From: Ascidia mentula
Lineage: Eukaryota; Chordata; Ascidiacea; Phlebobranchia; Ascidiidae
NCBI GenBank assembly: GCA_947561715.1
Contig: OX387199.1
Location: 10,607,001-10,671,000, forward strand
Direction: 5' to 3'
Length of the DNA: 64,000 nt
A program made the translations under genes and the position numbers. The notes under the pieces are model-generated. The model did no database searches. It worked only from the letters and a program-made list of their open reading frames with translations, and was not told the origin of the DNA. Positions 1 through 42,100 of this stretch are shown here, in pieces (position 1 is the first letter of the stretch; every line of letters starts with the position of its first letter).

Positions 1-140
1 ATTGTAAGTATAGGAGGGATAATGTTCAAGGAAGGAAGCGTGCCATGCAGGAGTGCTGGAAGCAACAACGTGATCACACGTTTTCTCACAACTATCCACA
101 CAAACTTGATAAACTTGATCACCAGGACAGGATCCAGTTT
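1..140 (-). CDS. Gene A array unit 12 (only exon 1, cut by the window edge)
   Basis: The first 140 bases match exon 1 (TIL start) of the other units, beginning in transcription order at 140. The gene and the array therefore continue to the left of the window; the number of further units cannot be told. Confidence 0.9.
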
Positions 141-3100
141 CTAAAATTAATTTAAACAGTCGTGATTGACAATTCTGTTACGATGCACAATAAAATATTC
201 ATGTACCAGTGTCGCAATTAAAAACGGAATCATAATCTTCACAATATCCTTCGTTTTCACAATATGAAACATGTTGTTGAATAAAGTTGGACGTGCAAAT
301 GGTACATTGAGCTTCGATGGCCGACAGATCGTCTGCATCGGTGTAACATTGCTCCTCGTAACATTGAAGTTCTAATTGACTGACATCGATCCCTTGATGA
401 CATTGGGCTGGAATCAATTTAATATGGTTGTATTACGCACACATACAGTTTCGGTGTTGTCGTACTAAAGTCTTGTAACACTTACCAAAAGCAGCATTAC
501 TCAATTCCAAACATGGGTCATTAAATCCAAAACTCGTGCAGTTTTTGCAAACAACGCAAGGTACGATGTTTTTGCAAGACTCCTGCTGGCAAGAGTCGCC
601 TGTACCGCAAGGTGGCGCACATGTAGAGTCTGTAACAAATTCTTGTTGGTCGACTGGTGGAATATCTGGACATTCACCGTCGCTATTTCCATCCCCGTTG
701 CAGTTTCCTGTGTGAAATTTGTCACAATGCAATAACCCAATCACTATAAGAAAACCTTTTAAAATCACTTAAACCTACCGCATAAACCTGATGTTCCATT
801 TTCGGTGTGACTCGAATACTGATAGATGTCAAAACTTCCTGTTGCATTGGGATTTGTCGCAACTTCCGGGTTTCGATATTCCACCAATAAACCGAACGGT
901 GATATATCCAACGTTATATGTGTGGCATACGCAATGGAACCGTGGTTAATTACACTTCGTTCTAACTTCAAACCGCCTTGATCGTATCCGGTAATAACGA
1001 CGTCATTAAGTTCGACCTACATCATCACAATTTAGTAAGAAGAACAAAAGAGATACTGACGTATCCAAATAATACAGATAAACAAACCTGGCTGGTGATT
1101 GGAAATATTTCAAACATGAAACTGTAATATCTAACAGATACACTTTCCAAACAAAGTTGGTTGGCAGTAAATTGTCTTGCTGGATATAATTCAGTGCAGA
1201 AGCCCTGCTTGGCAGTCACTTCGTAATCGTCACTGTCCACTGGCTAAAAATTAAATAACAATTACTTTAAATGAACCGAGGATGGTTTTGTTATTTAGTG
1301 ACAAAAACATAATTGATTTCTAAACACTCCGTATTTTGTAACAATAGAAAAAGAACATATTCTGCAACATGCAAACTATCAATGTAAAAAACTTTAAAAC
1401 TAACAACATAAACAAAAGAAGGTTTTGCCAAACAAGTAATCCATGCGTTTAAACCACTTGAAATCATTTTGGTAAGTTAAATAATAGATTTGGAAATAAC
1501 AAAATCATATTTGTAGAAAACTCACCTTTGTTACAAGGTAGGTACAATTTCCTGTAAAGTCCAAGGCTTGTTTGCATTGAAATATTTCGGGATTTCCAGT
1601 TCCGAGGCCACTACATTTGCCTTCAATAAAGTTGTCAAACGTAAAAAACATATAAACAAATAATTTCTTCCTCAAGTTCACTTACATCTACATTCGTACT
1701 CTTCACAACAAGTCGAATTTGATTTCAAAACCCTTTCCTGATCATCGCCGCATGTTATGTTTGAACACGTCTTGGGGACTGCAACAAAATATACAAACTG
1801 TATCAGGCGACAAAATTCATGAAACACAAAGTAAAAAGCACGAAAGTCTGTTAAGGACCTATATAGGTATTAAATGGGGCAAATTCTGTTTTCAAGGCCC
1901 TCTGCAATAATGCACCTGGTGACTGTTCCACTTGTTTCCCAACAACCGTTGATGGGTCTTGTGACTTACATAGGGACCTAATATTCTTCAAGGTTAAAAA
2001 AAAAATGCTGCTCCTGGATGAAACTGTACAGAGCAAGGACTTTTTACGCCTCCTGGAAGATCATATCACTAACAGGGGGGGGGGGGGGGGGGTCATAACC
2101 AGCCCTGGAGGGTTGCTTAGGTACTTTTTCAGCAGCTAACTTTGATGCCATTGCATAGAGAAGAGTTGGGACTTACACAAAAACGGAAATGAGTGGGCAG
2201 TTAAACGATTCAATTTTCTGCAAAATTAGGTTTCATTTTTTGTTGCTTGTTTTACCAAAATACTGAGTAACCAGGGTGGCAAATGGCCCCAGGGGGGCGG
2301 CTAAACCATTTTTTCACACACTAATTTTCATCAAAATTTGTAGATATGGGATCAATCTTTCAAAAAATCAAAAATGATTGGACACTTAAACGATTCATTT
2401 TTTCACAAATACAGCCTGAATTTTTTGCTCCATTTTCACCATAATTTTCAGCAGCACCCACCATCAAGTAACTACCTCATTAAAATAGCCGAAACCCCAC
2501 TAAAACTGCCCCAAACATCCTAAAATTCGCCATGACAACAGCACGCACATGTGCGCTCATTCAACCGTAAATTTAACTTAATTGCGTCACTGCTTTGCTT
2601 GCTGATGCATGACTTTGCATTGTGACACAGGTCTACACGTTGGGCATTTCCCAGCACCAAAACTAATTTTCATAGAAATACCAATATGCGTCCTTCAGAA
2701 ATATCATAAAACAGCAAATATGATTCATTTTCTATTTTGACTTACCACACTTGTTTACGATCCCACAACAAATATCATCATAGTCAAACACTTCTTCTCC
2801 ACAAACGCCACAATCAATATTAGGACAAGTGTATGTTGGTTCATATTCTATAGATGGACAATTGGACAGATTTCGACTGACAACCACAATCTCTTGACAG
2901 TCCGGATCGTTAGGATCAGGAAGGGTATCTCCCACCTTCACAAATTAACAATAAAGAGTTATGACAACACTAAAGATAACCCGAAACTTATCACCACTTG
3001 ACCCATACCTCATACTGAACACCGTCGATCGTATAATATTTGCATTCTGAAAAACATTAAGTGTAAAACTGGGAAATGTGTTGAGAATGAAATGGTTGTC

Positions 3101-6100
3101 TTACCGCATCTGTAAGTATGACAGCAACTGCTGCCAACTGGATCGTATTCGTGGCGAAAGTCATTGACGCCATTAGGACAATCCGGTGGACCCGCACACT
3201 GGCCAATATTTCGTGAAATTGTTGTGAAGCAGTTATCGTCTGGATTCGGTTGACACGTATACTCCATGCACCCATCAGTCCAAGTCTCACCAACCTAAAT
3301 TTAACGCACTTTCTTGTAAACTGGCGACATAACAAGTGATTTCAAACCTTACCTGATATGTTGTATCTCCAACAACACACCCCGAACATACTATAATACC
3401 AAAACAAGAAATAATTGAAAGAAACAATACACTTGAGTTTGATAAACGATTTACTCACCGCATCTTCCTGTGAAAATTGTACATCCGCAATCATCGGTCT
3501 GATTAGTTTCAGGAATAAAGTTGGTGTTTATATCACTGCATGGAGGTGTATCGTCACAGCAACCTAATTAAACAAAACCATTTGACCTCGACCTTGTCGA
3601 AACGGTTTCATCTTTAGTAAAATACATACATTCTTCCTTCACACATTCACTTTCACTTGAAGTTTTCAAAACGTAACCCTGAGGACATTCGCATTTGGAA
3701 ACAATATTTGTTTCACATCCTTCAGCCTGTCGAAGATATAAGTCTGGTTTAAGGTATCATCTGCAGGAAATGATAACAACTAACTATCTCATACCGATTG
3801 TGGCGCCGTAGGAGGATTGTAAGTATAGGAGGGATAATGTTCAAGGAAGGAAGCGTGCCATGCAGGAGTGCTGGAAGCAACAACGTGATCACACGTTTTC
3901 TCACAACTATCCACACAAACTTGATAAACTTGATCACCAGGACAGGATCCAGTTTCTAAAATTAATTTAAACAGTCGTGATTGACAATTCTGTTACGATG
4001 CACAATAAAATATTCATGTACCAGTGTCGCAATTAAAAACGGAATCATAATCTTCACAATATCCTTCGTTTTCACAATATGAAACATGTTGTTGAATAAA
4101 GTTGGACGTGCAAATGGTACATTGAGCTTCGATGGCCGACAGATCGTCTGCATCGGTGTAACATTGCTCCTCGTAACATTGAAGTTCTAATTGACTGACA
4201 TCGATCCCTTGATGACATTGGGCTGGAATCAATTTAATATGGTTGTATTACGCACACATACAGTTTCGGTGTTGTCGTACTAAAGTCTTGTAACACTTAC
4301 CAAAAGCAGCATTACTCAATTCCAAACATGGGTCATTAAATCCAAAACTCGTGCAGTTTTTGCAAACAACGCAAGGTACGATGTTTTTGCAAGACTCCTG
4401 CTGGCAAGAGTCGCCTGTACCGCAAGGTGGCGCACATGTAGAGTCTGTAACAAATTCTTGTTGGTCGACTGGTGGAATATCTGGACATTCACCGTCGCTA
4501 TTTCCATCCCCGTTGCAGTTTCCTGTGTGAAATTTGTCACAATGCAATAACCCAATCACTATAAGAAAACCTTTTAAAATCACTTAAACCTACCGCATAA
4601 ACCTGATGTTCCATTTTCGGTGTGACTCGAATACTGATAGATGTCAAAACTTCCTGTTGCATTGGGATTTGTCGCAACTTCCGGGTTTCGATATTCCACC
4701 AATAAACCGAACGGTGATATATCCAACGTTATATGTGTGGCATACGCAATGGAACCGTGGTTAATTACACTTCGTTCTAACTTCAAACCGCCTTGATCGT
4801 ATCCGGTAATAACGACGTCATTAAGTTCGACCTACATCATCACAATTTAGTAAGAAGAACAAAAGAGATACTGACGTATCCAAATAATACAGATAAACAA
4901 ACCTGGCTGGTGATTGGAAATATTTCAAACATGAAACTGTAATATCTAACAGATACACTTTCCAAACAAAGTTGGTTGGCAGTAAATTGTCTTGCTGGAT
5001 ATAATTCAGTGCAGAAGCCCTGCTTGGCAGTCACTTCGTAATCGTCACTGTCCACTGGCTAAAAATTAAATAACAATTACTTTAAATGAACCGAGGATGG
5101 TTTTGTTATTTAGTGACAAAAACATAATTGATTTCTAAACACTCCGTATTTTGTAACAATAGAAAAAGAACATATTCTGCAACATGCAAACTATCAATGT
5201 AAAAAACTTTAAAACTAACAACATAAACAAAAGAAGGTTTTGCCAAACAAGTAATCCATGCGTTTAAACCACTTGAAATCATTTTGGTAAGTTAAATAAT
5301 AGATTTGGAAATAACAAAATCATATTTGTAGAAAACTCACCTTTGTTACAAGGTAGGTACAATTTCCTGTAAAGTCCAAGGCTTGTTTGCATTGAAATAT
5401 TTCGGGATTTCCAGTTCCGAGGCCACTACATTTGCCTTCAATAAAGTTGTCAAACGTAAAAAACATATAAACAAATAATTTCTTCCTCAAGTTCACTTAC
5501 ATCTACATTCGTACTCTTCACAACAAGTCGAATTTGATTTCAAAACCCTTTCCTGATCATCGCCGCATGTTATGTTTGAACACGTCTTGGGGACTGCAAC
5601 AAAATATACAAACTGTATCAGGCGACAAAATTCATGAAACACAAAGTAAAAAGCACGAAAGTCTGTTAAGGACCTATATAGGTATTAAATGGGGCAAATT
5701 CTGTTTTCAAGGCCCTCTGCAATAATGCACCTGGTGACTGTTCCACTTGTTTCCCAACAACCGTTGATGGGTCTTGTGACTTACATAGGGACCTAATATT
5801 CTTCAAGGTTAAAAAAAAAATGCTGCTCCTGGATGAAACTGTACAGAGCAAGGACTTTTTACGCCTCCTGGAAGATCATATCACTAACAGGGGGGGGGGG
5901 GGGGGTCATAACCAGCCCTGGAGGGTTGCTTAGGTACTTTTTCAGCAGCTAACTTTGATGCCATTGCATAGAGAAGAGTTGGGACTTACACAAAAACGGA
6001 AATGAGTGGGCAGTTAAACGATTCAATTTTCTGCAAAATTAGGTTTCATTTTTTGTTGCTTGTTTTACCAAAATACTGAGTAACCAGGGTGGCAAATGGC

Positions 6101-9100
6101 CCCAGGGGGGCGGCTAAACCATTTTTTCACACACTAATTTTCATCAAAATTTGTAGATATGGGATCAATCTTTCAAAAAATCAAAAATGATTGGACACTT
6201 AAACGATTCATTTTTTCACAAATACAGCCTGAATTTTTTGCTCCATTTTCACCATAATTTTCAGCAGCACCCACCATCAAGTAACTACCTCATTAAAATA
6301 GCCGAAACCCCACTAAAACTGCCCCAAACATCCTAAAATTCGCCATGACAACAGCACGCACATGTGCGCTCATTCAACCGTAAATTTAACTTAATTGCGT
6401 CACTGCTTTGCTTGCTGATGCATGACTTTGCATTGTGACACAGGTCTACACGTTGGGCATTTCCCAGCACCAAAACTAATTTTCATAGAAATACCAATAT
6501 GCGTCCTTCAGAAATATCATAAAACAGCAAAAATGATTCATTTTCTATTTTGACTTACCACACTTGTTTACGATCCCACAACAAATATCATCATAGTCAA
6601 ACACTTCTTCTCCACAAACGCCACAATCAATATTAGGACAAGTGTATGTTGGTTCATATTCTATAGATGGACAATTGGACAGATTTCGACTGACAACCAC
6701 AATCTCTTGACAGTCCGGATCGTTAGGATCAGGAAGGGTATCTCCCACCTTCACAAATTAACAATAAAGAGTTATGACAACACTAAAGATAACCCGAAAC
6801 TTATCACCATTTGACCCATACCTCATACTGAATACCGTCGATCGTATAATATTTGCATTCTGAAAAACATTAAGTGTAAAACTGGGAAATGTGTTGAGAA
6901 TGAAATGGTTGTCTTACCGCATCTGTAAGTATGACAGCAACTGCTGCCAACTGGATCGTATTCGTGGCGAAAGTCATTGACGCCATTAGGACAATCCGGT
7001 GGACCCGCACACTGGCCAATATTTCGTGAAATTGTTGTGAAGCAGTTATCGTCTGGATTCGGTTGACACGTATACTCCATGCACCCATCAGTCCAAGTCT
7101 CACCAACCTAAATTTAACGCACTTTCTTGTAAACTGGCGACATAACAAGTGATTTCAAACCTTACCTGATATGTTGTATCTCCAACAACACACCCCGAAC
7201 ATACTATAATACCAAAACAAGAAATAATTGAAAGAAACAATACACTTGAGTTTGATAAACGATTTACTCACCGCATCTTCCTGTGAAAATTGTACATCCG
7301 CAATCATCGGTCTGATTAGTTTCAGGAATAAAGTTGGTGTTTATATCACTGCATGGAGGTGTATCGTCACAGCAACCTAATTAAACAAAACCATTTGACC
7401 TCGACCTTGTCGAAACGGTTTCATCTTTAGTAAAATACATACATTCTTCCTTCACACATTCACTTTCACTTGAAGTTTTCAAAACGTAACCCTGAGGACA
7501 TTCGCATTTGGAAACAATATTTGTTTCACATCCTTCAGCCTGTCGAAGATATAAGTCTGGTTTAAGGTATCATCTGCAGGAAATGATAACAACTAACTAT
7601 CTCATACCGATTGTGGCGCCGTAGGAGGATTGTAAGTATAGGAGGGATAATGTTCAAAGAAGGAAGCGTGCCATGCAGGAGTGCTGGAAGCAACAACGTG
7701 ATCACACGTTTTCTCACAACTATCCACACAAACTTGATACACTTGATCACCAGGACAGGATCCAGTTTCTAAAATTAATTTAAACAGTCGTGATTGACAA
7801 TTCTGTTACGATGCACAATAAAATATTCATGTACCAGTGTCGCAATTAAAAACGGAATCATAATCTTCACAATATCCTTCGTTTTCACAATATGAAACAT
7901 GTTGTTGAATAAAGTTGGACGTGCAAATGGTACATTGAGCTTCGATGGCCGACAGATCGTCTGCATCGGTGTAACATTGCTCCTCGTAACATTGAATTTC
8001 TAATTGACCGACATCGATCCCTTGATGACATTGGGCTGGAATCAATTTAAATGGTTGTATTACACACACATACAGTTTCGGTGTTGTCGTACTAAAGTCT
8101 TGTAACACTTACCAAATGCAGCATTACTCAATTCCAAACATGGGTCATTAAATCCAAAACTCGTGCAGTTTTTGCAAACAACGCAAGGTACGATGTTTTT
8201 GCAAGACTCCTGCTGGCAAGAGTCGCCTGTACCGCAAGGTGGCGCACATGTAGAGTCTGTAACAAATTCTTGTTGGTCGACTGGTGGAATATCTGGACAT
8301 TCACCGTCGCTATTTCCATCCCCGTTGCAGTTTCCTGTGTGAAATTTGTCACAATGCAATAACCCAATCACTATAAGAAAACCTTTTCAAATCACTTAAA
8401 CCTACCGCATAAACCTGATGTTCCATTTTCGGTGTGACTCGAATACTGATAGATGTCAAAACTTCCTGTTGCATTGGGATTTGTCGCAACTTCCGGGTTT
8501 CGATATTCCACCAATAAACCGATCGGTGATATATCCAACGTTATATGTGTGGCATACGCAATGGAACCGTGGTTAATTACACTTCGTTCTAACTTCAAAC
8601 CGCCTTGATCGTATCCGGTAATAACGACGTCATTAAGTTCGACCTACATCATCACAATTTAGTAAGAAGAACAAAAGAGATACTGACGTATCCAAATAAT
8701 ACAGATAAACAAACCTGGCTGGTGACTGGAAATATTTCAAACATGAAACTGTAATATCTAACAGATACACTTTCCAAACAAAGTTGGTTGGCAGTAAATT
8801 GTCTTGCTGGATATAATTCAGTACAGAAGCCCTGCTTGGCAGTCACTTCGTAATCGTCACTGTCCACTGGCTAAAAATAAAATAACAATTACTTTAAATC
8901 AACCGAGGATGGTTTTGTTATTTAGTGACAAAAACATAATTGATTTCTAAACACTCCATATTTTGTAACAATAGAAAAAGAACATATTCTGCAACATGCA
9001 AACTATCAATGTAAAAAACTTTAAAACTAACAACATAAACAAAAGAAGGTTTTGCCAAACAAGTAATCCATGCGTTTAAACCACTTGAAATCATTTTGGT

Positions 9101-12100
9101 AAGTTAAATAATAGATTTGGAAATAACAAAATCATATTTGTAGAAAACTCACCTTTGTTACAAGGTAGGTACAATTTCCTGTAAAGTCCAAGGCTTGTTT
9201 GCATTGAAATATTTCGGGATTTCCAGTTCCGAGGCCACTACATTTGCCTTCAATAAAGTTGTCAAACGTAAAAAACATATAAACAAATAATTTCTTCCTC
9301 AACTTCACTTACATCTACATTCGTACTCTTCACAACAAGTCGAATTGGATTTCAAAACCCTTTCCTGATCATCGCCGCATGTTATGTTTGAACACGTCTT
9401 GGGGACTGCAACAAAATAAACAAACTGTATCAGGCGACAAAACTCATGAAACACAAAGTAAAAAGCACGAAAGTCTGTTAAGGACCTATATAGGTATTAA
9501 ATGGGGCAAATTCTGTTTTCAAGGCCCTCTGCAATAATGCACCTGGTGACTGTTCCACTTGTTTCCCAACAACCGTTGATGGGTCTTGTGACTTACATAG
9601 GGACCTAATATTCTTCAAGGTTAAAAAAAAAAATTGCTGCTCCTGGATGAAACTGTACAGAGCAAGGACTTGTTACGCCTCCTGGAAGATCATATCACTA
9701 ACAGGGGGGGTCATAACCAGCCATGGAGGGTTGCTTAGGTACTTTTTCAGCAGCTAACTTTGATGCCATTGCATAGAGAAGAGTTGGGACTTACACAAAA
9801 ACGGAAATGAGTGGGCAGTTAAACGATTCAATTTTCTGCAAAATTAGGTTTCATTTTTTGTTGCTTGTTTTACCAAAATACTGAGTAACCAGGGTGGCAA
9901 ATGGCCCCAGGGGGGCGGCTAAACCATTTTTTCACACACTAATTTTCATCAAAATTTGTAGATATGGGATCAATCTTTCATAAAATCAAAAATGATTGGA
10001 CACTTAAACGATTCATTTTTTCACAAATACAGCCTGAATTTTTTGCTCCATTTTCACCATAATTTTCAGCAGCACCCACCATCAAGTAACTACCTCATTA
10101 AAATAGCCGAAACCCCACTAAAACTGCCCCAAACATCCTAAAATTCGCCATGACAACAGCACGCACATATGCGCTCATTCAACCGTAAATTTAACTTAAT
10201 TGCGTCACTGCTTTGCTTGCTGATGCATGACTTTGCATTGTGACACAGGTCTACACGTTGGGCATTTCCCAGCACCAAAACTAATTTTCATAGAAATACC
10301 AATATGCGTCCTTCACAAATATCATAAAACAGCAAAAATGATTCATTTTCTATTTTGACTTACCACACTTGTTTACGATCCCACAACAAATATCATCATA
10401 GTCAAACACTTCTTCTCCACAAACGCCACAATCAATATTAGGACAAGTGTATGTTGGTTCATATTCTATAGATGGACAATTGGACAGATTTCGACTGACA
10501 ACCACAATCTCTTGACAGTCCGGATCGTTAGGATCAGGAAGGGTATCTCCCACCTTCACAAATTAACAATAAAGAGTTATGACAACACTAAAGATAACCC
10601 GAAACTTATCACCATTTGACCCATACCTCATACTGAATACCGTCGATCGTATAATATTTGCATTCTGAAAAACATTAAGTGTAAAACTGGGAAATGTGTT
10701 GAGAATGAAATGGTTGTCTTACCGCATCTGTAAGTATGACAGCAACTGCTGCCAACTGGATCGTATTCGTGGCGAAAGTCATTGACGCCATTAGGACAAT
10801 CCGGTGGACCCGCACACTGGCCAATATTTCGTGAAATTGTTGTGAAGCAATTATCGTCTGGATTCGGTTGACACGTATACTCCATGCACCCATCAGTCCA
10901 AGTCTCACCAACCTAAATTTAACGCACTTTCTTGTAAACTGGCGACATAACAAGTGATTTCAAACCTTACCTGATATGTTGTATCTCCAACAACACACCC
11001 CGAACATACTATAATACCAAAACAAGAAATAATTGAAAGAAACAATACACTTGAGTTTGATAAACGATTTACTCACCGCATCTTCCTGTGAAAATTGTAC
11101 ATCCGCAATCATCGGTCTGATTAGTTTCAGGAATAAAGTTGGTGTTTATATCACTGCATGGAGGTGTATCGTCACAGCAACCTAATTAAACAAAACCATT
11201 TGACCTCGACCTTGTCGAAACGGTTTCATCTTTAGTAAAATACATACATTCTTCCTTCACACATTCACTTTCACTTGAAGTTTTCAAAACGTAACCCTGA
11301 GGACATTCGCATTTGGAAACAATATTTGTTTCACATCCTTCAGCCTGTCGAAGATATGAGTCTGGTTTAAGGTATCATCTGCAGGAAATGATAACAACTA
11401 ACTATCTCATACCGATTGTGGCGCCGTAGGAGGATTGTAAGTATAGGAGGGATAATGTTCAAAGAAGGAAGCGTGCCATGCAGGAGTGCTGGAAGCAACA
11501 ACGTGATCACACGTTTTCTCACAACTATCCACACAAACTTGATACACTTGATCACCAGGACAGGATCCAGTTTCTAAAATTAATTTAAACAGTCGTGATT
11601 GACAATTCTGTTACGATGCACAATAAAATATTCATGTACCAGTGTCGCAATTAAAAACGGAATCATAATCTTCACAATATCCTTCGTTTTCACAATATGA
11701 AACATGTTGTTGAATAAAGTTGGACGTGCAAATGGTACATTGAGCTTCGATGGCCGACAGATCGTCTGCATCGGTGTAACATTGCTCCTCGTAACATTGA
11801 ATTTCTAATTGACCGACATCGATCCCTTGATGACATTGGGCTGGAATCAATTTAAATGGTTGTATTACACACACATACAGTTTCGGTGTTGTCGTACTAA
11901 AGTCTTGTAACACTTACCAAATGCAGCATTACTCAATTCCAAACATGGGTCATTAAATCCAAAACTCGTGCAGTTTTTGCAAACAACGCAAGGTACGATG
12001 TTTTTGCAAGACTCCTGCTGGCAAGAGTCGCCTGTACCGCAAGGTGGCGCACATGTAGAGTCTGTAACAAATTCTTGTTGGTCGACTGGTGGAATATCTG

Positions 12101-27100: not shown

Positions 27101-30100
27101 ATTACTCAATTCCAAACATGGGTCATTAAATCCAAAACTCGTGCAGTTTTTGCAAACAACGCAAGGTACGATGTTTTTGCAAGACTCCTGCTGGCAAGAG
27201 TCGCCTGTACCGCAAGGTGGCGCACATGTAGAGTCTGTAACAAATTCTTGTTGGTCGACTGGTGGAATATCTGGACATTCACCGTCGCTATTTCCATCCT
27301 CATTGCAGTTTCCTGTGTGAAATTTGTCACAATGCAATAACCCAATCACTATAAGAAAACCTTTTAAAATCACTTAAACCTACCACATAAACCTGATGTT
27401 CCATTTTCGGTGTGACTCGAATACTGATAGATGTCAAAACTTCCTGTTGCATTGGGATTTGTCGCAACTTCCGGGTTTCGATATTCCACCAATAAACCGA
27501 TCGGTGATATATCCAACGTTATATGTGTGGCATACGCAATGGAACCGTGGTTAATTACACTTCGTTCTAACTTCAAACCGCCTTGATCGTATCCGGTAAT
27601 AACGACGTCATTAAGTTCGACCTACATCATCACAATTTAGTAAGAAGAACAAAAGAGATACTGACGTATCCAAATAATACAGATAAACAAACCTGGCTGG
27701 TGATTGGAAATATTTCAAACATGAAACTGTAATATCTAACAGATACACTTTCCAAACAAAGTTGGTTGGCAGTAAATTGTCTTGCTGGATATAATTCAGT
27801 GCAGAAGCCCTGCTTGGCAGTCACTTCGTAATCGTCACTGTCCACTGGCTAAAAATTAAATAACAATTACTTTAAATCAACCGAGGATGGTTTTGTTATT
27901 TAGTGACAAAAACATAATTGATTTCTAAACACTCCATATTTTGTAACAATAAAAAAGAACATATTTCGCAACATACAAACTATCTATGTAAAAAACTTTA
28001 AAACTAACAACATAAACAAAAGAAGCTTTTGCCAAACAAGTAATCCATGCGTTTAAACCACTTGAAATCATTTTGGGAAGTTAAATAATAGATTTGGAAA
28101 TAACAAAATCATATTTGTAGAAAACTCACCTTTGTTACAAGGTAGGTACAATTCCCTGTGAAGTCCAAGGCTTGTTTGCATTGAAATATTTCGGGATTTC
28201 CAGTTCCGAGGCCACTACATTTGCCTTTAATAAAGTTGTCAAACGTAAAAAACATATAAACAAATAATTTCTTCCTCAACTTCACTTACATCTACATTCG
28301 TACTCTTCACAACAAGTCGAATTGGATTTCAAAACCCTTTCCTGATCATCGCCGCATGTTATGTTTGAACACGTCTTGGGGACTGCAACAAAATAAACAA
28401 ACTGTATCAGGCGACAAAATTCATGAAACACAAAGTAAAAAGCACGAAAGTCTGTTAAGAAATATCATAAAACAGCAAAAATGATTCATTTTCTATTTTG
28501 ACTTACCACACTTGTTTACGATCCCACAACAAATATCATCATAGTCAAACACTTCTTCTCCACAAACGCCACAATCAATATTAGGACAAGTGTATGTTGG
28601 TTCATATTCTATAGATGGACAATTGGACAGATTTCGACTGACAACCACAATCTCTTGACAGTCCGGATCGTTAGGATCAGGAAGGGTATCTCCCACCTTC
28701 ACAAATTAACAATAAAGAGTTATGACAACACTAAAGATAACCCGAAAACTATCACCACTTGACCCATACCTCATACTGAATACCGTCGATCGTATAATAT
28801 ATGCATTCTGAAAAACATTAAGTGTAAAACTGGGAAATGTGTTGAGAATGAAATGGTTGTCTTACCGCATCTGTAAGTATGACAGCAACTGCTGCCAACT
28901 GGATCGTATTCGTGGCGAAAGTCATTGACGCCATTAGGACAATCCGGTGGACCCGCACACTGGCCAATATTTCGTGAAATTGTTGTGAAGCAATTATCGT
29001 CTGGATTCGGTTGACACGTATACTCCATGCACCCATCAGTCCAAGTCTCACCAACCTAAATTTAACGCACTTTCTTGTAAACTGGCGACATAACAAGTGA
29101 TTTCAAACCTTACCTGATATGTTGTATCTCCAACAACACACCCCGAACATACTATAATACCAAAACAAGAAATAATTGAAAGAAACAATACACTTGAGTT
29201 TGATAAACGATTTACTCACCGCATCTTCCTGTGAAAATTGTACATCCGCAATCATCGGTCTGATTAGTTTCAGGAATAAAGTTGGTGTTTATATCACTGC
29301 ATGGAGGTGTATCGTCACAGCAACCTAATTAAACAAAACCATTTGACCTCGACCTTGTCGAAACGGTTTCATCTTTAGTAAAATACATACATTCTTCCTT
29401 CACACATTCACTTTCACTTGAAGTTTTTAAAACGTAACCCTGAGGACATTCGCATTTGGAAACAATATTTGTTTCACATCCTTCAGCCTGTCGAAGATAT
29501 AAGTCTGGTTTAAGGTATCATCTGCAGGAAATGATAACAACTAACTATCTCATACCGATTGTGGCGCCGTAGGAGGATTGTAAGTATAGGAGGGATAATG
29601 TTCAAAGAAGGAAGCGTGCCATGCAGGAGTGCTGGAAGCAACAACGTGATCACACGTTTTCTCACAACTATCCACACAAACTTGATAAACTTGATCACCA
29701 GGACAGGATCCAGTTTCTAAAATTAATTTAAACAGTCGTGATTGACATTTCTGTTACGATGCACAATAAAATATTCATGTACCAGTGTCGCAATTAAAAA
29801 CGGAATCATAATCTTCACAATATCCTTCGTTTTCACAATATGAAACATGTTGTTGAATAAAGTTGGACGTGCAAATGGTACATTGAGCTTCGATGGCCGA
29901 CAGATCGTCTGCATCGGTGTAACATTGCTCCTCGTAACATTGAATTTCTAATTGACTGACATCGATCCCTTGATGACATTGGGCTGGAATCAATTTAATA
30001 TGGTTGTATTACGCACACATACAGTTTCGGTGTTGTCGTACTAAAGTCTTGTAACACTTACCAAATGCAGCATTACTCAATTCCAAACATGGGTCATTAA

Positions 30101-33100
30101 ATCCAAAACTCGTGCAGTTTTTGCAAACAACGCAAGGTACGATGTTTTTGCAAGACTCCTGCTGGCAAGAGTCGCCTGTACCGCAAGGTGGCGCACATGT
30201 AGAGTCTGTAACAAATTCTTGTTGGTCGACTGGTGGAATATCTGGACATTCACCGTCGCTATTTCCATCCCCGTTGCAGTTTCCTGTGTGAAATTTGTCA
30301 CAATGCAATAACCCAATCACTATAAGAAAACCTTTTAAAATCACTTAAACCTACCACATAAACCTGATGTTCCATTTTCGGTGTGACTCGAATACTGATA
30401 GATGTCAAAACTTCCTGTTGCATTGGGATTTGTCGCAACTTCCGGGTTTCGATATTCCACCAATAAACCGATCGGTGATATATCCAACGTTATATGTGTG
30501 GCATACGCAATGGAACCGTGGTTAATTACACTTCGTTCTAACTTCAAACCGCCTTGATCGTATCCGGTAATAACGACGTCATTAAGTTCGACCTACATCA
30601 TCACAATTTAGTAAGAAGAACAAAAGAGATACTGACGTATCCAAATAATACAGATAAACAAACCTGGCTGGTGATTGGAAATATTTCAAACATGAAACTG
30701 TAATATCTAACAGATACACTTTCCAAACAAAGTTGGTTGGCAGTAAATTGTCTTGCTGGATATAATTCAGTGCAGAAGCCCTGCTTGGCAGTCACTTCGT
30801 AATCGTCACTGTCCACTGGCTAAAAATTAAATAACAATTACTTTAAATGAACCGAGGATGGTTTTGTTATTTAGTGACAAAAACATAATTGATTTCTAAA
30901 CACTCCGTATTTTCTAACAATAGAAAAAGAACATATTTCGCAACATGCAAACTATCAATGTAAAAAACTTTAAAACTAACAACATAAACAAAAGAATCTT
31001 TTGCCAAACAAGTAATCCATGCGTTTAAAACACTTGAAATCATTTTGGGAAGTTAAATAATAGATTTGGAAATAACAAAATCATATTTGTAGAAAACTCA
31101 CCTTTGTTACAAGGTAGGTACAATTTCCTGTAAAGTCCAAGGCTTGTTTGCATTGAAATATTTCGGGATTTCCAGTTCCGAGGCCACTACATTTGCCTTT
31201 AATAAAGTTGTCAAACGTAAAAAACATATAAACAAATAATTTCTTCCTCAAGTTCACTTACATCTACATTCGTACTCTTCACAACAAGTCGAATTGGATT
31301 TCAAAACCCTTTCCTGATCATCGCCGCATGTTATGTTTGAACACGTCTTGGGGACTGCAACAAAATAAACAAACTGTATCAGGCGACAAAATTCATGAAA
31401 CACAAAGTAAAAAGCACGAAAGTCTGTTAAGGACCTATATAGGTATTAAATGGGGCAAATTCTGTTTTCAAGGCCCTCTGCAATAATGCACCTGGTGACT
31501 GTTCCACTTGTTTCCCAACAACCGTTGATGGGTCTTGTGACTTACATAGGGACCTAATATTCTTCAAGGTTAAAAAAAAAAATTGCTGCTCCTGGATGAA
31601 ACTGTACAGAGCAAGGACTTGTTACGCCTCCTGGAAGATCATATCACTAACAGGGGGGGTCATAACCATCCCTGGAGGGTTACTTACGTACTTTTTCAGC
31701 AGCTAACTTTGATGCCATTGCATAGAGAAAAGTTGGGACTTACACAAAAACGCAAATGAGTGGGCAGTTAAACGATTCAATTTTCTGCAAAATTAGGTTT
31801 CATTTTTTGTTGCTTGTTTTACCAAAATACTGAGTAACCAGGGTGGCAAATGGCCCCAGGGGTGCGGCTAAACCATTTTTTCACACACTAATTTTCATTA
31901 AAATTTGTAGATATGGGATGAATCTTTCATAAAATCAAAAATGATTGGACACTTAAACGATTCATTTTCCACAAATACAGCCTGATTTTTTTGCTCCATT
32001 TTCACCATAATTTTCAGCAGCACTCACCATCAAGTAACTACCTCATTAAAATAGCCCAAAACCCCACTAAAACTGCCCCAAACATCCTAAAATTCGCCAT
32101 GACAACAGCACGCACATGTGCGCTCATTCAACCGTAAATTTAACTTAATTGCGTCACTGCTTTGCTTGCTGATGCATGACTTTGCATTGTGACACAGGTC
32201 TACACGTTGGGCATTTCCCAGCACCAAAACTAATTTTCAAAGAAATACCAATATGCGTCCTTCAGAAATATCATAAAACAGCAAAAATGATTCATTTTCT
32301 ATTTTGACTTACCACACTTGTTTACGATCCCACAACAAATATCATCATAGTCAAACACTTCTTCTCCACAAACGCCACAATCAATATTAGGACAAGTGTA
32401 TGTTGGTTCATATTCTATAGATGGACAATTGGACAGATTTCGACTGACAACCACAATCTCTTGACAGTCCGGATCGTTAGGATCAGGAAGGGTATCTCCC
32501 ACCTTCACAAATTAACAATAAAGAGTTATGACAACACTAAAGATAACCCGAAAACTATCACCACTTGACCCATACCTCATACTGAATACCGTCGATCGTA
32601 TAATATATGCATTCTGAAAAACATAAAGTGTAAAACTGGGAAATGTGTTGAGAATGAAATGGTTGTCTTACCGCATCTGTAAGTATGACAGCAACTGCTG
32701 CCAACTGGATCGTATTCGTGGCGAAAGTCATTGACGCCATTAGGACAATCCGGTGGACCCGCACACTGGCCAATATTTCGTGAAATTGTTGTGAAGCAAT
32801 TATCGTCTGGATTCGGTTGACACGTATACTCCATGCACCCATCAGTCCAAGTCTCACCAACCTAAATTTAACGCACTTTCTTGTAAACTGGCGACATAAC
32901 AAGTGATTTCAAACCTTACCTGATATGTTGTATCTCCAACAACACACCCCGAACATACTATAATACCAAAACAAGAAATAATTGAAAGAAACAATACACT
33001 TGAGTTTGATAAACGATTTACTCACCGCATCTTCCTGTGAAAATTGTACATCCGCAATCATCGGTCTGATTAGTTTCAGGAATAAAGTTGGTGTTTATAT

Positions 33101-36100
33101 CACTGCATGGAGGTGTATCGTCACAGCAACCTAATTAAACAAAACCATTTGACCTCGACCTTGTCGAAACGGTTTCATCTTTAGTAAAATACATACATTC
33201 TTCCTTCACACATTCACTTTCACTTGAAGTTTTCAAAACGTAACCCTGAGGACATTCGCATTTGGAAACAATATTTGTTTCACATCCTTCAGCCTGTCGA
33301 AGATATAAGTCTGGTTTAAGGTATCATCTGCAGGAAATGATAACAACTAACTATCTCATACCGATTGTGGCGCCGTAGGAGGATTGTAAGTATAGGAGGG
33401 ATAATGTTCAAAGAAGGAAGCGTGCCATGCAGGAGTGCTGGAAGCAACAACGTGATCACACGTTTTCTCACAACTATCCACACAAACTTGATAAACTTGA
33501 TCACCAGGACAGGATCCAGTTTCTAAAATTAATTTAAACAGTCGTGATTGACATTTCTGTTACGATGCACAATAAAATATTCATGTACCAGTGTCGCAAT
33601 TAAAAACGGAATCATAATCTTCACAATATCCTTCGTTTTCACAATATGAAACATGTTGTTGAATAAAGTTGGACGTGCAAATGGTACATTGAGCTTCGAT
33701 GGCCGACAGATCGTCTGCATCGGTGTAACATTGCTCCTCGTAACATTGAATTTCTAATTGACTGACATCGATCCCTTGATGACATTGGGCTGGAATCAAT
33801 TTAATATGGTTGTATTACGCACACATACAGTTTCGGTGTTGTCGTACTAAAGTCTTGTAACACTTACCAAATGCAGCATTACTCAATTCCAAACATGGGT
33901 CATTAAATCCAAAACTCGTGCAGTTTTTGCAAACAACGCAAGGTACGATGTTTTTGCAAGACTCCTGCTGGCAAGAGTCGCCTGTACCGCAAGGTGGCGC
34001 ACATGTAGAGTCTGTAACAAATTCTTGTTGGTCGACTGGTGGAATATCTGGACATTCACCGTCGCTATTTCCATCCCCGTTGCAGTTTCCTGTGTGAAAT
34101 TTGTCACAATGCAATAACCCAATCACTATAAGAAAACCTTTTAAAATCACTTAAACCTACCGCATAAACCTGATGTTCCATTTTCGGTGTGACTCGAATA
34201 CTGATAGATGTCAAAACTTCCTGTTGCATTGGGATTTGTCGCAACTTCCGGGTTTCGATATTCCACCAATAAACCGATCGGTGATATATCCAACGTTATA
34301 TGTGTGGCATACGCAATGGAACCGTGGTTAATTACACTTCGTTCTAACTTCAAACCGCCTTGATCGTATCCGGTAATAACGACGTCATTAAGTTCGACCT
34401 ACATCATCACAATTTAGTAAGAAGAACAAAAGAGATACTGACGTATCCAAATAATACAGATAAACAAACCTGGCTGGTGATTGGAAATATTTCAAACATG
34501 AAACTGTAATATCTAACAGATACACTTTCCAAACAAAGTTGGTTGGCAGTAAATTGTCTTGCTGGATATAATTCAGTGCAGAAGCCCTGCTTGGCAGTCA
34601 CTTCGTAATCGTCACTGTCCACTGGCTAAAAATTAAATAACAATTACTTTAAATGAACCGAGGATGGTTTTGTTATTTAGTGACAAAAACATAATTGATT
34701 TCTAAACACTCCGTATTTTCTAACAATAGAAAAAGAACATATTTCGCAACATGCAAACTATCAATGTAAAAAACTTTAAAACTAACAACATAAACAAAAG
34801 AATCTTTTGCCAAACAAGTAATCCATGCGTTTAAAACACTTGAAATCATTTTGGGAAGTTAAATAATAGATTTGGAAATAACAAAATCATATTTGTAGAA
34901 AACTCACCTTTGTTACAAGGTAGGTACAATTTCCTGTAAAGTCCAAGGCTTGTTTGCATTGAAATATTTCGGGATTTCCAGTTCCGAGGCCACTACATTT
35001 GCCTTTAATAAAGTTGTCAAACGTAAAAAACATATAAACAAATAATTTCTTCCTCAAGTTCACTTACATCTACATTCGTACTCTTCACAACAAGTCGAAT
35101 TGGATTTCAAAACCCTTTCCTGATCATCGCCGCATGTTATGTTTGAACACGTCTTGGGGACTGCAACAAAATAAACAAACTGTATCAGGCGACAAAATTC
35201 ATGAAACACAAAGTAAAAAGCACGAAAGTCTGTTAAGGACCTATATAGGTATTAAATGGGGCAAATTCTGTTTTCAAGGCCCTCTGCAATAATGCACCTG
35301 GTGACTGTTCCACTTGTTTCCCAACAACCGTTGATGGGTCTTGTGACTTACATAGGGACCTAATATTCTTCAAGGTTAAAAAAAAAAATTGCTGCTCCTG
35401 GATGAAACTGTACAGAGCAAGGACTTGTTACGCCTCCTGGAAGATCATATCACTAACAGGGGGGGTCATAACCATCCCTGGAGGGTTACTTACGTACTTT
35501 TTCAGCAGCTAACTTTGATGCCATTGCATAGAGAAAAGTTGGGACTTACACAAAAACGCAAATGAGTGGGCAGTTAAACGATTCAATTTTCTGCAAAATT
35601 AGGTTTCATTTTTTGTTGCTTGTTTTACCAAAATACTGAGTAACCAGGGTGGCAAATGGCCCCAGGGGTGCGGCTAAACCATTTTTTCACACACTAATTT
35701 TCATTAAAATTTGTAGATATGGGATGAATCTTTCATAAAATCAAAAATGATTGGACACTTAAACGATTCATTTTCCACAAATACAGCCTGATTTTTTTGC
35801 TCCATTTTCACCATAATTTTCAGCAGCACTCACCATCAAGTAACTACCTCATTAAAATAGCCCAAAACCCCACTAAAACTGCCCCAAACATCCTAAAATT
35901 CGCCATGACAACAGCACGCACATGTGCGCTCATTCAACCGTAAATTTAACTTAATTGCGTCACTGCTTTGCTTGCTGATGCATGACTTTGCATTGTGACA
36001 CAGGTCTACACGTTGGGCATTTCCCAGCACCAAAACTAATTTTCAAAGAAATACCAATATGCGTCCTTCAGAAATATCATAAAACAGCAAAAATGATTCA

Positions 36101-39100
36101 TTTTCTATTTTGACTTACCACACTTGTTTACGATCCCACAACAAATATCATCATAGTCAAACACTTCTTCTCCACAAACGCCACAATCAATATTAGGACA
36201 AGTGTATGTTGGTTCATATTCTATAGATGGACAATTGGACAGATTTCGACTGACAACCACAATCTCTTGACAGTCCGGATCGTTAGGATCAGGAAGGGTA
36301 TCTCCCACCTTCACAAATTAACAATAAAGAGTTATGACAACACTAAAGATAACCCGAAAACTATCACCACTTGACCCATACCTCATACTGAATACCGTCG
36401 ATCGTATAATATATGCATTCTGAAAAACATAAAGTGTAAAACTGGGAAATGTGTTGAGAATGAAATGGTTGTCTTACCGCATCTGTAAGTATGACAGCAA
36501 CTGCTGCCAACTGGATCGTATTCGTGGCGAAAGTCATTGACGCCATTAGGACAATCCGGTGGACCCGCACACTGGCCAATATTTCGTGAAATTGTTGTGA
36601 AGCAATTATCGTCTGGATTCGGTTGACACGTATACTCCATGCACCCATCAGTCCAAGTCTCACCAACCTAAATTTAACGCACTTTCTTGTAAACTGGCGA
36701 CATAACAAGTGATTTCAAACCTTACCTGATATGTTGTATCTCCAACAACACACCCCGAACATACTATAATACCAAAACAAGAAATAATTGAAAGAAACAA
36801 TACACTTGAGTTTGATAAACGATTTACTCACCGCATCTTCCTGTGAAAATTGTACATCCGCAATCATCGGTCTGATTAGTTTCAGGAATAAAGTTGGTGT
36901 TTATATCACTGCATGGAGGTGTATCGTCACAGCAACCTAATTAAACAAAACCATTTGACCTCGACCTTGTCGAAACGGTTTCATCTTTAGTAAAATACAT
37001 ACATTCTTCCTTCACACATTCACTTTCACTTGAAGTTTTCAAAACGTAACCCTGAGGACATTCGCATTTGGAAACAATATTTGTTTCACATCCTTCAGCC
37101 TGTCGAAGATATAAGTCTGGTTTAAGGTATCATCTGCAGGAAATGATAACAACTAACTATCTCATACCGATTGTGGCGCCGTAGGAGGATTGTAAGTATA
37201 GGAGGGATAATGTTCAAAGAAGGAAGCGTGCCATGCAGGAGTGCTGGAAGCAACAACGTGATCACACGTTTTCTCACAACTATCCACACAAACTTGATAA
37301 ACTTGATCACCAGGACAGGATCCAGTTTCTAAAATTAATTTAAACAGTCGTGATTGACATTTCTGTTACGATGCACAATAAAATATTCATGTACCAGTGT
37401 CGCAATTAAAAACGGAATCATAATCTTCACAATATCCTTCGTTTTCACAATATGAAACATGTTGTTGAATAAAGTTGGACGTGCAAATGGTACATTGAGC
37501 TTCGATGGCCGACAGATCGTCTGCATCGGTGTAACATTGCTCCTCGTAACATTGAATTTCTAATTGACTGACATCGATCCCTTGATGACATTGGGCTGGA
37601 ATCAATTTAATATGGTTGTATTACGCACACATACAGTTTCGGTGTTGTCGTACTAAAGTCTTGTAACACTTACCAAATGCAGCATTACTCAATTCCAAAC
37701 ATGGGTCATTAAATCCAAAACTCGTGCAGTTTTTGCAAACAACGCAAGGTACGATGTTTTTGCAAGACTCCTGCTGGCAAGAGTCGCCTGTACCGCAAGG
37801 TGGCGCACATGTAGAGTCTGTAACAAATTCTTGTTGGTCGACTGGTGGAATATCTGGACATTCACCGTCGCTATTTCCATCCCCGTTGCAGTTTCCTGTG
37901 TGAAATTTGTCACAATGCAATAACCCAATCACTATAAGAAAACCTTTTAAAATCACTTAAACCTACCGCATAAACCTGATGTTCCATTTTCGGTGTGACT
38001 CGAATACTGATAGATGTCAAAACTTCCTGTTGCATTGGGATTTGTCGCAACTTCCGGGTTTCGATATTCCACCAATAAACCGATCGGTGATATATCCAAC
38101 GTTATATGTGTGGCATACGCAATGGAACCGTGGTTAATTACACTTCGTTCTAACTTCAAACCGCCTTGATCGTATCCGGTAATAACGACGTCATTAAGTT
38201 CGACCTACATCATCACAATTTAGTAAGAAGAACAAAAGAGATACTGACGTATCCAAATAATACAGATAAACAAACCTGGCTGGTGATTGGAAATATTTCA
38301 AACATGAAACTGTAATATCTAACAGATACACTTTCCAAACAAAGTTGGTTGGCAGTAAATTGTCTTGCTGGATATAATTCAGTGCAGAAGCCCTGCTTGG
38401 CAGTCACTTCGTAATCGTCACTGTCCACTGGCTAAAAATTAAATAACAATTACTTTAAATGAACCAAGGATGGTTTTGTTATTTAGTGACAAAAACATAA
38501 TTGATTTCTAAACACTCCGTATTTTCTAACAATAGAAAAAGAACATATTTCGCAACATGCAAACTATCAATGTAAAAAACTTTAAAACTAACAACATAAA
38601 CAAAAGAATCTTTTGCCAAACAAGTAATCCATGCGTTTAAAACACTTGAAATCATTTTGGGAAGTTAAATAATAGATTTGGAAATAACAAAATCATATTT
38701 GTAGAAAACTCACCTTTGTTACAAGGTAGGTACAATTTCCTGTAAAGTCCAAGGCTTGTTTGCATTGAAATATTTCGGGATTTCCAGTTCCGAGGCCACT
38801 ACATTTGCCTTTAATAAAGTTGTCAAACGTAAAAAACATATAAACAAATAATTTCTTCCTCAAGTTCACTTACATCTACATTCGTACTCTTCACAACAAG
38901 TCGAATTGGATTTCAAAACCCTTTCCTGATCATCGCCGCATGTTATGTTTGAACACGTCTTGGGGACTGCAACAAAATAAACAAACTGTATCAGGCGACA
39001 AAATTCATTAAACACAAAGTAAAAAGCACGAAAGTCTGTTAAGGACCTATATAGGTATTAAATGGGGCAAATTCTGTTTTCAAGGCCCTCTGCAATAATG

Positions 39101-42100
39101 CACCTGGTGACTGTTCCACTTGTTTCCCAACAACCGTTGATGGGTCTTGTGACTTACATAGGGACCTAATATTCTTCAAGGTTAAAAAAAAAAATTGCTG
39201 CTCCTGGATGAAACTGTACAGAGCAAGGACTTGTTACGCCTCCTGGAAGATCATATCACTAACAGGGGGGGTCATAACCATCCCTGGAGGGTTACTTACG
39301 TACTTTTTCAGCAGCTAACTTTGATGCCATTGCATAGAGAAGAGTTGGGACTTACACAAAAACGCAAATGAGTGGGCAGTTAAACGATTCAATTTTCTGC
39401 AAAATTAGGTTTCATTTTTTGTTGCTTGTTTTACCAAAATACTGAGTAACCAGGGTGGCAAATGGCCCCAGGGGTGCGGCTAAACCATTTTTTCACACAC
39501 TAATTTTCATTAAAATTTGTAGATATGGGATGAATCTTTCATAAAATCAAAAATGATTGGACACTTAAACGATTCATTTTCCACAAATACAGCCTGATTT
39601 TTTTGCTCCATTTTCACCATAATTTTCAGCAGCACTCACCATCAAGTAACTACCTCATTAAAATAGCCCAAAACCCCACTAAAACTGCCCCAAACATCCT
39701 AAAATTCGCCATGACAACAACACGCACATGTGCGCTCATTCAACCGTAAATTTAACTTAATTGCGTCACTGCTTTGCTTGCTGATGCATGACTTTGCATT
39801 GTGACACAGGTCTACACGTTGGGCATTTCCCAGCACCAAAACTTATTTTCATAGAAATACCAATATGCGTCCTTCACAAATATCATAAAACAGCAAAAAT
39901 GATTCATTTTCTATTTTGACTTACCACACTTGTTTACGATCCCACAACAAATATCATCATAGTCAAACACTTCTTCTCCACAATCGCCACAATCAATATT
40001 AGGACAAGTGTATGTTGGTTCATATTCTATAGATGGACAATTGGACAGATTTCGACTGACAACCACAATCTCTTGACAGTCCGGATCGTTAGGATCAGGA
40101 AGGGTATCTCCCACCTTCACAAATTAACAATAAAGAGTTATGACAACACTAAAGATAACCCGAAACTTATCACCACTTGACCCATACCTCATACTGAATA
40201 CCGTCGATCGTATAATATTTGCATTCTGAAAAACATTAAGTGTAAAACTGGGAAATGTGTTGAGAATGAAATGGTTGTCTTACCGCATCTGTAAGTATGA
40301 CAGCAACTGCTGCCAACTGGATCGTATTCGTGGCGAAAGTCATTGACGCCATTAGGACAATCCGGTGGACCCGCACACTGGCCAATATTTCGTGAAATTG
40401 TTGTGAAGCAATTATCGTCTGGATTCGGTTGACACGTATACTCCATGCACCCATCAGTCCAAGTCTCACCAACCTAAATTTAACGCACTTTCTTGTAAAC
40501 TGGCGACATAACAAGTGATTTCAAACCTTACCTGATATGTTGTATCTCCAACAACACACCCCGAACATACTATAATACCAAAACAAGAAATAATTGAAAG
40601 AAACAATACACTTGAGTTTGATAAACGATTTACTCACCGCATCTTCCTGTGAAAATTGTACATCCGCAATCATCGGTCTGATTAGTTTCAGGAATAAAGT
40701 TGGTGTTTATATCACTGCATGGAGGTGTATCGTCACAGCAACCTAATTAAATAAAACCATTTGACCTCGACCTTGTCGAAAAGGTTTCATCTTTAGTAAA
40801 ATACATACATTCTTCCTCCACACATTCACTTTCACTTGAAGTTTTTAAAACGTAACCCTGAGGACATTCGCATTTGGAAACAATAATCGTTTCGCATTCG
40901 TACTGTAGAAAAAATTACAGTGTTTGTTTTTGTTATAGGCTCTATGACAAAAGTATTTACGGCTTGCGGTGCATTGGGAGGATTGTAAATATAGGAGGGA
41001 TAATGTTCAAAGAAGGAAGCGTGCCATGCAGGAGTGCTGGAAGCAACAACGTGATCGCACGTTTTCTCACAACTATCCACACAAACAGCAAAAACCTGAT
41101 TTCCCGGGCAAGTTCCAGTTTCTGGCGAGAAACAAGAACTTATATTTCAATCTAGCAAAAACTTGATTTACAAACTACATTAAAAATATGTTACTCAGAT
41201 TAAGACCTCGAATTGATTGTTTTTTTGCTCTTTGTTTTTTTTAATTGATATAAATCTGTTTATTTCGACAAAGCCATACCCTTGATATTTTGATTTTGGT
41301 CGAAGTGTTTTAACATTATTTAGGAATAAACTAGGAATATATTCATATGTTAGTACCCGACGAGTCAACAACCTCTTGTACCGAAATGCATTGATTTTTT
41401 TTTAAATTAAACTTTCCGAAATTGTTGTCATAAAATTTAATTTGGTAGTCAACAGAATGTACCAGTGTCGCAGTTAAATTCAGAGTTGTAATCTTCACAA
41501 TATCCTTCGTTTTCACAATGAGAAATATGTTGTTGAATAAAGTTGGACGTGCAAATGGTACATTGAGCTTCGATGGCGGACAGATCGTCATCGTCAGAAA
41601 AACATTGGTCTTGGTAGCAGAGTTCCATCAGCCGAGTAAAGTCAACATCTTGGTGACACTCAGCTGAAAAATAATGATTTAAATTAAATTGCTTTATGTT
41701 TGTACTGCACTGTGTTAAAATTACACATATATTCACAACACTTACCTAGAATGGAATTACTTAGTGCTATACATGGGTCACCAAATCCGTAGTCACTACA
41801 GTTTTTGCAGGTTACGCAAGGTACCACGTTCTTGCATTCCTCAGTTTGGCAGCTGTCGCCAGTTCCGCATGGTGGCGGGCAAGTGTCGTCTTCGATAAAA
41901 TCTTCTAGATTTATATCCGGGAACTCCGGGCAATTTTCTTCTTCCTCTTCGTTCGTGTTACAGTTTCCTAAAAAAAAATTAATCATTTTACGCTGTAAAA
42001 AGATTGTATTCCGCGTCGCCATTCCAAAGTTTACAGCAAAAATCATGCGTGAGTTGATGTCCGATGTCAATGTTAAAAAAGTATCCTACAATAAACCGGA

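Follow-up and report, generated by a model that had tools for sequence, protein, structure and literature searches.

A thirteen-fold array of 13-exon, D4-like cassettes within a predicted giant mucin/von Willebrand factor superfamily gene of the ascidian Ascidia mentula

We analysed a 64,000-nucleotide stretch of the genome of the ascidian Ascidia mentula (assembly GCA_947561715.1, contig OX387199.1; C52:10607001-10671000), referred to here as the window, most of which is taken up by gene B, a predicted minus-strand gene harboring a long array of nearly identical exon-intron cassettes. Coordinates are given in window numbering, with negative numbers lying to the left of the window start; the genome searched comprised 195.8 Mb in 79 contigs, and the unit count comes from one haplotype, the other having been deposited as GCA_947561685.1. 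Exon models were built with a custom splice-aware Viterbi gene finder, retrained on this locus, which largely imposes GT-AG at splice sites. With its first settings the program overlooked a 156-bp exon (donor CAG/GTTTGT) and introduced spurious tiny introns; this was mended inside the array by a heavier coding weight, so that exon ends elsewhere are only approximate predictions. The gene B model extends from about 58514 to -19381 and encodes 13,255 amino acids in 241 exons, with 1,462 cysteines and 183 N-glycosylation sequons. A sequence-only reading of the window had predicted a protein of more than 9,000 residues; the giant product stood, while its size was revised to that of the model. To the right lies a tandem paralogue, gene A (100613 to 60916, minus strand; 6,441 amino acids, 92 exons, three D4-like modules), whose 3' end occupies 60916 to 64000 of the window. 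An earlier setting of the gene finder had joined A and B into one gene, a model that was dropped because of a second CBM_14 start and a first cystine-knot end. The window was also rejected as a complete gene, since gene B runs about 19 kb further to the left and the paralogue lies at the right.

The array reaches from 41123 leftward to about -8679, a distance of 49.8 kb. In 1-kb bins of the array (contig positions ~10598001 to 10648000) the mean 24-mer count was ~8.5-12.5 (maximum 14), compared to 1.0 in each flanking bin (31 on the left side, 24 on the right side), and no N bases occur from 10547001 to 10691000. Units were cut on the minus strand, phased at the element-bearing intron for DNA comparisons or from the 93-bp exon for protein. 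Phased from the 93-bp exon, 13 whole consecutive units lie between 38966 and -8679: U1 (36119-38966), U2 (32313-35160), U3 (28507-31354), U4 (25537-28382), U5 (21732-24578), U6 (17926-20773), U7 (14170-17015), U8 (10364-13210), U9 (6559-9405), U10 (2746-5593), U11 (1-1778 in the window, ending at -1069) and, outside the window, U12 (-2027 to -4874) and U13 (-5833 to -8679). Each unit has 13 exons, of 93/95/156/238/222/201/161/97/105/38/190/38/190 bp, and these lengths are equal in all 13 units, as are the 608 residues, 64 cysteines, eight NXS/T sequons and zero stops per unit. The proteins of U2 and U3 equal that of U1, and the other ten are two to five residues away from it. GT-AG borders occur in all 170 introns that lie inside the array or at its edges, as the gene finder largely demands. 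All 14 module starts are in phase 1, and each unit, bounded by phase-1 introns, contributes 1,824 bp of coding sequence, so that gain or loss of whole units preserves the reading frame. The near-identity begins inside a diverged module, B0 (39925-43176), whose 3' part from 41123 to 39925 is 94.3% identical to the unit, and it ends at -8679, ahead of a second diverged module, B14 (from -8742), which gave a single match to unit DNA (77 bases at 71%). Both array ends continue in frame into these diverged modules. When the unit protein was searched against the genome (best 72 of 120 candidates scored), at least 135 matches were obtained, and those listed lie on C52 within genes A and B. A comparison of the array stretch with phage DNA gave no match and is of no use here. 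Farther left of the array, unrelated repeats reach a 24-mer count of 34.

These results bear out the homogenised multi-exon cassette within one predicted gene that had been proposed from the letters of the window, including its 13 exons, 608 residues and 64 cysteines per unit, and they enlarge the array by two more units and a part unit left of the window. The 11 complete units claimed inside the window agree with a count from the 161-bp exon at 41121, the starts of which lie at 41121, 37328, 33522, 29716, 26746, 22941, 19135, 15378, 11573, 7768, 3955 and 140. Near-identity from 41121 onward held to within two bases, while the rest of the module at 43176-39925 proved diverged. The claimed precision of the repeat applies to exon lengths; the units measure 3806, 3806, 3806, 2970, 3805, 3806, 3756, 3806, 3805, 3813, 3815, 3805 and 3805 bp from U1 to U13, and the 2,970-bp U4 is without an 834-bp intron element.

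We then compared the units with each other, leaving gaps out pairwise. The mean pairwise difference was 0.0045 for exons and 0.0114 for introns (the intron figure includes the 834-bp element), a 2.5-fold gap that contradicts the proposal that introns are as alike as exons. The introns match synonymous sites (pS 0.0110), while pN was 0.0028, giving a pN/pS of 0.255. Among variable codons, 14 were synonymous and 16 nonsynonymous where 20.5% of sites are synonymous (P = 0.0012, treating columns as independent). The low difference at exons and replacement sites relative to introns and silent sites indicates wholesale homogenisation of the DNA, with selection maintaining the protein. In addition, divergence between units grows with their separation, from 0.42% for neighbours to 1.18% for the ends (Mantel r 0.80, p 1e-4), and 395 of 1,891 informative site pairs showed all four gametes (Rm 14), suggesting that exchange occurs mostly among neighbours and leaves mosaic tracts. 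There are 100 variable single-nucleotide columns, with private variants in nine of the 13 units; U1-U3 are apart at 3-10 sites, and U10 and U11 at one substitution. Overall, the coding array appears to be under selection, with unequal exchange or conversion maintaining the likeness of its units.

The 834-bp element (example copy at 39044-39877, delimited by comparing full and empty introns) is present in 12 of the 13 introns that separate units; the intron preceding U4 represents a clean site without it, and the copy preceding U7 carries a 48-bp deletion. In a genome search in which the best 40 of 1,456 candidates were scored, copies up to 97% identical were found on C1, C2 and C69, with edges that agree within ~8 bp. 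No target-site duplication was evident at the element. Either exchange carried the element into almost every unit, or it was lost from U4. More distant relatives (~89%) stand in rows with a spacing of ~1,891 bp, for example at C2:2.99-3.02 Mb, and similar rows of its 316-bp end lie at C52:614-625 kb.

The remainder of gene B follows the plan of the gel-forming mucins and von Willebrand factor (VWF). The model opens with a CBM_14 chitin-binding exon (58308-58514), followed by an EGF-like exon (58144-58239; below Pfam cut-offs), a D1 assembly (54536-57732; 55-84%, depending on the exon, to D1 of gene A), a D2 assembly (52105-54303; the model missed its VWD part near 53571-53890) and a D'D3 assembly (48970-51891), these three D assemblies being assigned by exon-by-exon pairing with gene A. 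Two exons at 47907-48429 encode, by translation, a Thr-rich linker of ~60 residues at the place of the long PTS domain of mucins, and Cys-rich VWC/Fn1-like modules (43363-47676) precede B0 and the array. Downstream of B14, a 6,436-bp exon (-11434 to -17869) precedes the cystine-knot end at -19381. CBM_14 opens both genes above its cut-off of 22.1 bits, with 36.8 and 29.0 bits in genes A and B, respectively. Residues 1-1468 of gene A matched Pfam VWD (1.7e-81), C8 (5.6e-43) and TIL (2e-15), and its D1-D3 aligned with VWF at 6e-224 and with MUC5B at 3.5e-221. Every cysteine of the gene A C8-3 stretch is matched in MUC5B, MUC5AC, MUC2 and VWF, and the inter-chain positions of D3 are cysteines in gene A (by alignment) and in gene B (by eye). 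The last 99 residues of gene B matched best to the VWF CTCK (2.6e-5 and 3.6e-5). The GDPH motif is missing from both gene models, no MAM domain was found in the first 1,468 residues of gene A (the stretch scanned), and no VWA domain was found in the scanned pieces of genes A and B, gene B not having been scanned whole. This plan, with D1-D2-D'D3 before the array and a cystine knot after it, departs from the likeness to FCGBP and zonadhesin that had been suggested earlier. Those proteins share tandem VWD assemblies with the locus, and FCGBP was the top whole-sequence match for gene A D3 alone (5e-154, followed by MUC5AC at 3e-143 and VWF at 1e-124); they differ in GDPH, which is reported from many VWD domains (PMC10880436) and is absent here, in MAM, not seen here, and in the D1-D2-D'D3 and cystine knot present here.

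Several observations on module structure accompany this plan. A 54-bp "intron" between exons of 2,267 and 4,115 bp was dropped in favor of the one open 6,436-bp exon; this exon and a 4,471-bp exon of gene A (67018 to 62548) each encode many Cys-rich modules, the like of which are split over 38 + 190 bp exon pairs upstream. The three D4-like modules of gene A share 203-225 bp around one exon at 98.5-99% identity, and two of them share 567 bp of large exons at 92% identity, which makes patchy gene conversion likely there too.

To characterize the unit, we aligned three gene A modules (two hand-trimmed) with B0, U1 and B14. The profile of these six modules gave five matches in the PDB at E <=1, namely MUC2 7qcn (2.4e-8), MUC2 7pov (3.6e-6), MUC5AC (0.0021), BSTI (0.006) and an unrelated one (0.063), and B14 alone matched only 7qcn at E <=10 (6.7e-5), making this MUC2 structure the unit's nearest solved relative. 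By Pfam, VWD was found in two of the six modules (best 1.5e-7) and TIL in four, and hhalign aligned the modules with the D1-D3 of the locus itself at 98.2% (E 3.6e-14). The profile, the B14 match, the Pfam and hhalign results and the position between D3 and the knot support the reading that the unit is a diverged D-assembly (VWD to TIL), most likely D4. Two VWC/Fn1-like modules of 75 residues, both encoded by a pair of exons of 38 and 190 bp, close each unit. When four modules of this type were scanned singly, one gave a weak VWC match (0.0011), the one from the array a weak Fn1_2 match (1.2e-4) and two nothing, all below cut-offs; a three-module piece had no match in Pfam, and a seven-row profile had none in the PDB at E 10. 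Thus Pfam gives no confirmation of the two VWC modules claimed for each unit.

A number of results weigh against assigning the unit to D4 and gene B to a polymer-forming mucin. Pfam C8 was found in none of the six modules, so that of the VWD-C8-TIL naming proposed for the unit the VWD-type module was upheld and the C8 part was not. The database search that had been suggested for the 608-residue module was run, and alone the module is almost matchless: a single array unit found nothing in the PDB at E 1, and its sole Pfam match was TIL at 0.03. The first 269 residues of a gene A module gave only one chance match in the PDB (E 1.7). For 7qcn, the best single stretch scored 1.5e-4 and had high composition bias; a stretch of 7pov in its D2 region scored better (3.6e-6). 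The choice of D4 over another D type follows from the whole-sequence score, the match of B14 to 7qcn, which is the D4 part of MUC2, and position. At the level of the gene, a scan upstream of 58514 found no candidate for the first exon(s) or signal peptide of gene B, and Pfam Cys_knot reached 22.1 bits, under its 24-bit cut-off. No long PTS domain was found, the Thr-rich linker of gene B being the only such stretch. D1 reads K/VGLCG (VGLCG in gene B) and D2 reads CGLAG in both genes, and CGLC, which occurs once per gene, in D3 (CGLCG in gene B), was not found in D1 or D2 of either gene. The VWF propeptide uses the CGLC of D1 and D2, so multimerisation may differ here. Finally, the tissue in which the product would act is a guess.

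Taking these points together with the domain plan, we consider that the product of gene B is probably a giant secreted member of the gel-forming-mucin/VWF superfamily, of the Ci-GFM1-like type that binds chitin in ascidians, with an array kept uniform by exchange. In such a protein, chains would join tail to tail via the knot and head to head via D3, forming disulphide-linked polymers that would bind chitin, and the D4 array would form a long disulphide-stapled spacer at the place of the sugar-coated PTS region of vertebrate mucins. The product would most likely contribute to a gel outside the cells, for instance the mucus net of the endostyle or the gut envelope. The array may have grown and stayed uniform through unequal crossing-over and gene conversion, with purifying selection on the protein and drift in introns and at silent sites. 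Tunicates catch food with endostyle-secreted mucus nets, as stated in a report (PMC6109156) that also describes Ci-GFM1, a 2,880-amino-acid chitin-binding gel-forming mucin of Ciona with a 50-amino-acid PTS domain, third in abundance in the gut-membrane proteome. From its description there, Ci-GFM1 shares with gene B a chitin-binding domain, D1, D2, D'D3, D4, a cystine knot and a small PTS; it also has VWC, which is putative in gene B, and it differs in having one D4 in 2,880 amino acids compared to 15 D4-like modules, 13 of them near-identical, in the 13,255 amino acids of gene B.

The same core plan is common to VWF, and a haemocyte or tunic clotting or matrix protein, rather than a mucus component, is the alternative it would allow. 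Expressed sequence tags from a Botryllus allorejection library are best matched to Ciona "von Willebrand factor like 1" (PMC2527998), which agrees with that idea; CBM_14 points to a chitinous surface, the scanned pieces of the two genes are without VWA, and the Ciona protein of the same plan belongs to the gut membrane proteome (PMC6109156), and we regard a clotting role as rather unlikely. The polymer-gel plan of CBM_14, D1-D2-D'D3 and cystine knot also stands against a protein of gametes or of allorecognition, resembling zonadhesin or an egg-coat component, whose repeats would differ in number or sequence between individuals as a self label. Zonadhesin, a VWD protein, is implicated in sperm-egg binding, self/non-self recognition takes place in ascidian fertilisation, and array length could be polymorphic; nevertheless, the scanned part of gene A is without MAM, and the copies are made alike under purifying selection, so this account is quite unlikely.

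Two further alternatives concern the array itself. If the assembler had expanded one or a few true units, or had set a wrong copy number, the array would be an artefact, and U1-U3 and U10/U11 are indeed close enough for an error of one or two units. The unbroken run without N, the 100 variable columns and private variants, the one unit without the mobile element and the in-frame passage into diverged modules at both ends all argue against this, as do the 74-fold HiFi coverage, QV of 64.9 and contig N50 of 11.9 Mb reported for the assembly (PMC11109543); an artefact is unlikely, with a slim chance at best. That the repeat is neutral and decaying, with most units without product, would fit an intronic mobile element with copies up to 97% identical elsewhere. 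It is scarcely credible beside equal coding length without stops in all 13 units, a pN/pS of 0.255 and splice sites kept in every unit, though the gene finder demands these.

Other loci bearing VWD were found on C67, C69, C72, C73 and C2, with at least 117 matches genome-wide (best 150 of 215 candidates scored). Some of them, for example those around C67:12.65 Mb and C72:5.22 Mb, matched D3 as well and may, as a guess, be single-D4 relatives. The next predicted gene beyond gene B lies on the same strand at -23413 to -29688 and presumably resembles a cytosolic asparaginyl-tRNA synthetase. Contig C79 is the mitogenome, with long recognisable frames on one strand; its 19,461 bp are long relative to the 14.48-18.4 kb given for four other ascidians. 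Its COX1 contains 16 AGA/AGG codons, many at conserved glycine positions (MIGGFGNW, LPGFGMIS, TVGMDVDA), as under the ascidian code.

Multi-exon coding repeats within one gene are already known, as is the plan of D1-D2-D'D3, D4 and knot. The array resembles LPA KIV-2 (and NEB) in that a multi-exon coding unit is repeated within one gene, and the features of the LPA type that we tested for, an in-frame multi-exon unit with homogenised exons and introns, are present. The LPA KIV-2 unit measures ~5.6 kb with two exons (PMC11201333) and occurs in 1-40 units per allele (PMC11462820); here there are 13 exons per 3.8-kb unit, and the domains are unrelated. With MUC2, MUC5B and VWF, gene B shares the order D1-D2-D'D3 and the cysteines of D3 and the knot. 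The human proteins have one D4, no CBM_14 and CGLC in D1 and D2. At mid-protein the mucins also have a long PTS, and VWF has VWA (PMC6109156). In the papers found by literature search, judged by titles and abstract openings, neither tandem D4 assemblies nor a gene of this kind with a 13-fold, 13-exon D4 cassette was apparent, which leaves their absence unproven.

The D4-like module, present once in Ci-GFM1, MUC2 and VWF, occurs in 15 copies in gene B, and, if our reading is true, the product of gene B would to our knowledge rank with the largest and most cysteine-rich proteins of the mucin/VWF superfamily. The array is also a clean natural example of how a large intragenic exon-intron cassette evolves in concert, with a mobile-element insertion as tracer. 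More tentatively, gene B could represent a second route to a mucus polymer, a possibility we hold at less than even, in which a chain of disulphide-stapled D4 rods of variable length, encoded by a 13-exon in-frame variable-number tandem repeat, takes the place of the PTS spacer, and the length of the allele would set the mesh of the feeding net or gut envelope. The finding suggests a testable idea for ascidian biology: that polymers of the mucus and gut envelope may gain length without a long O-glycosylated domain.

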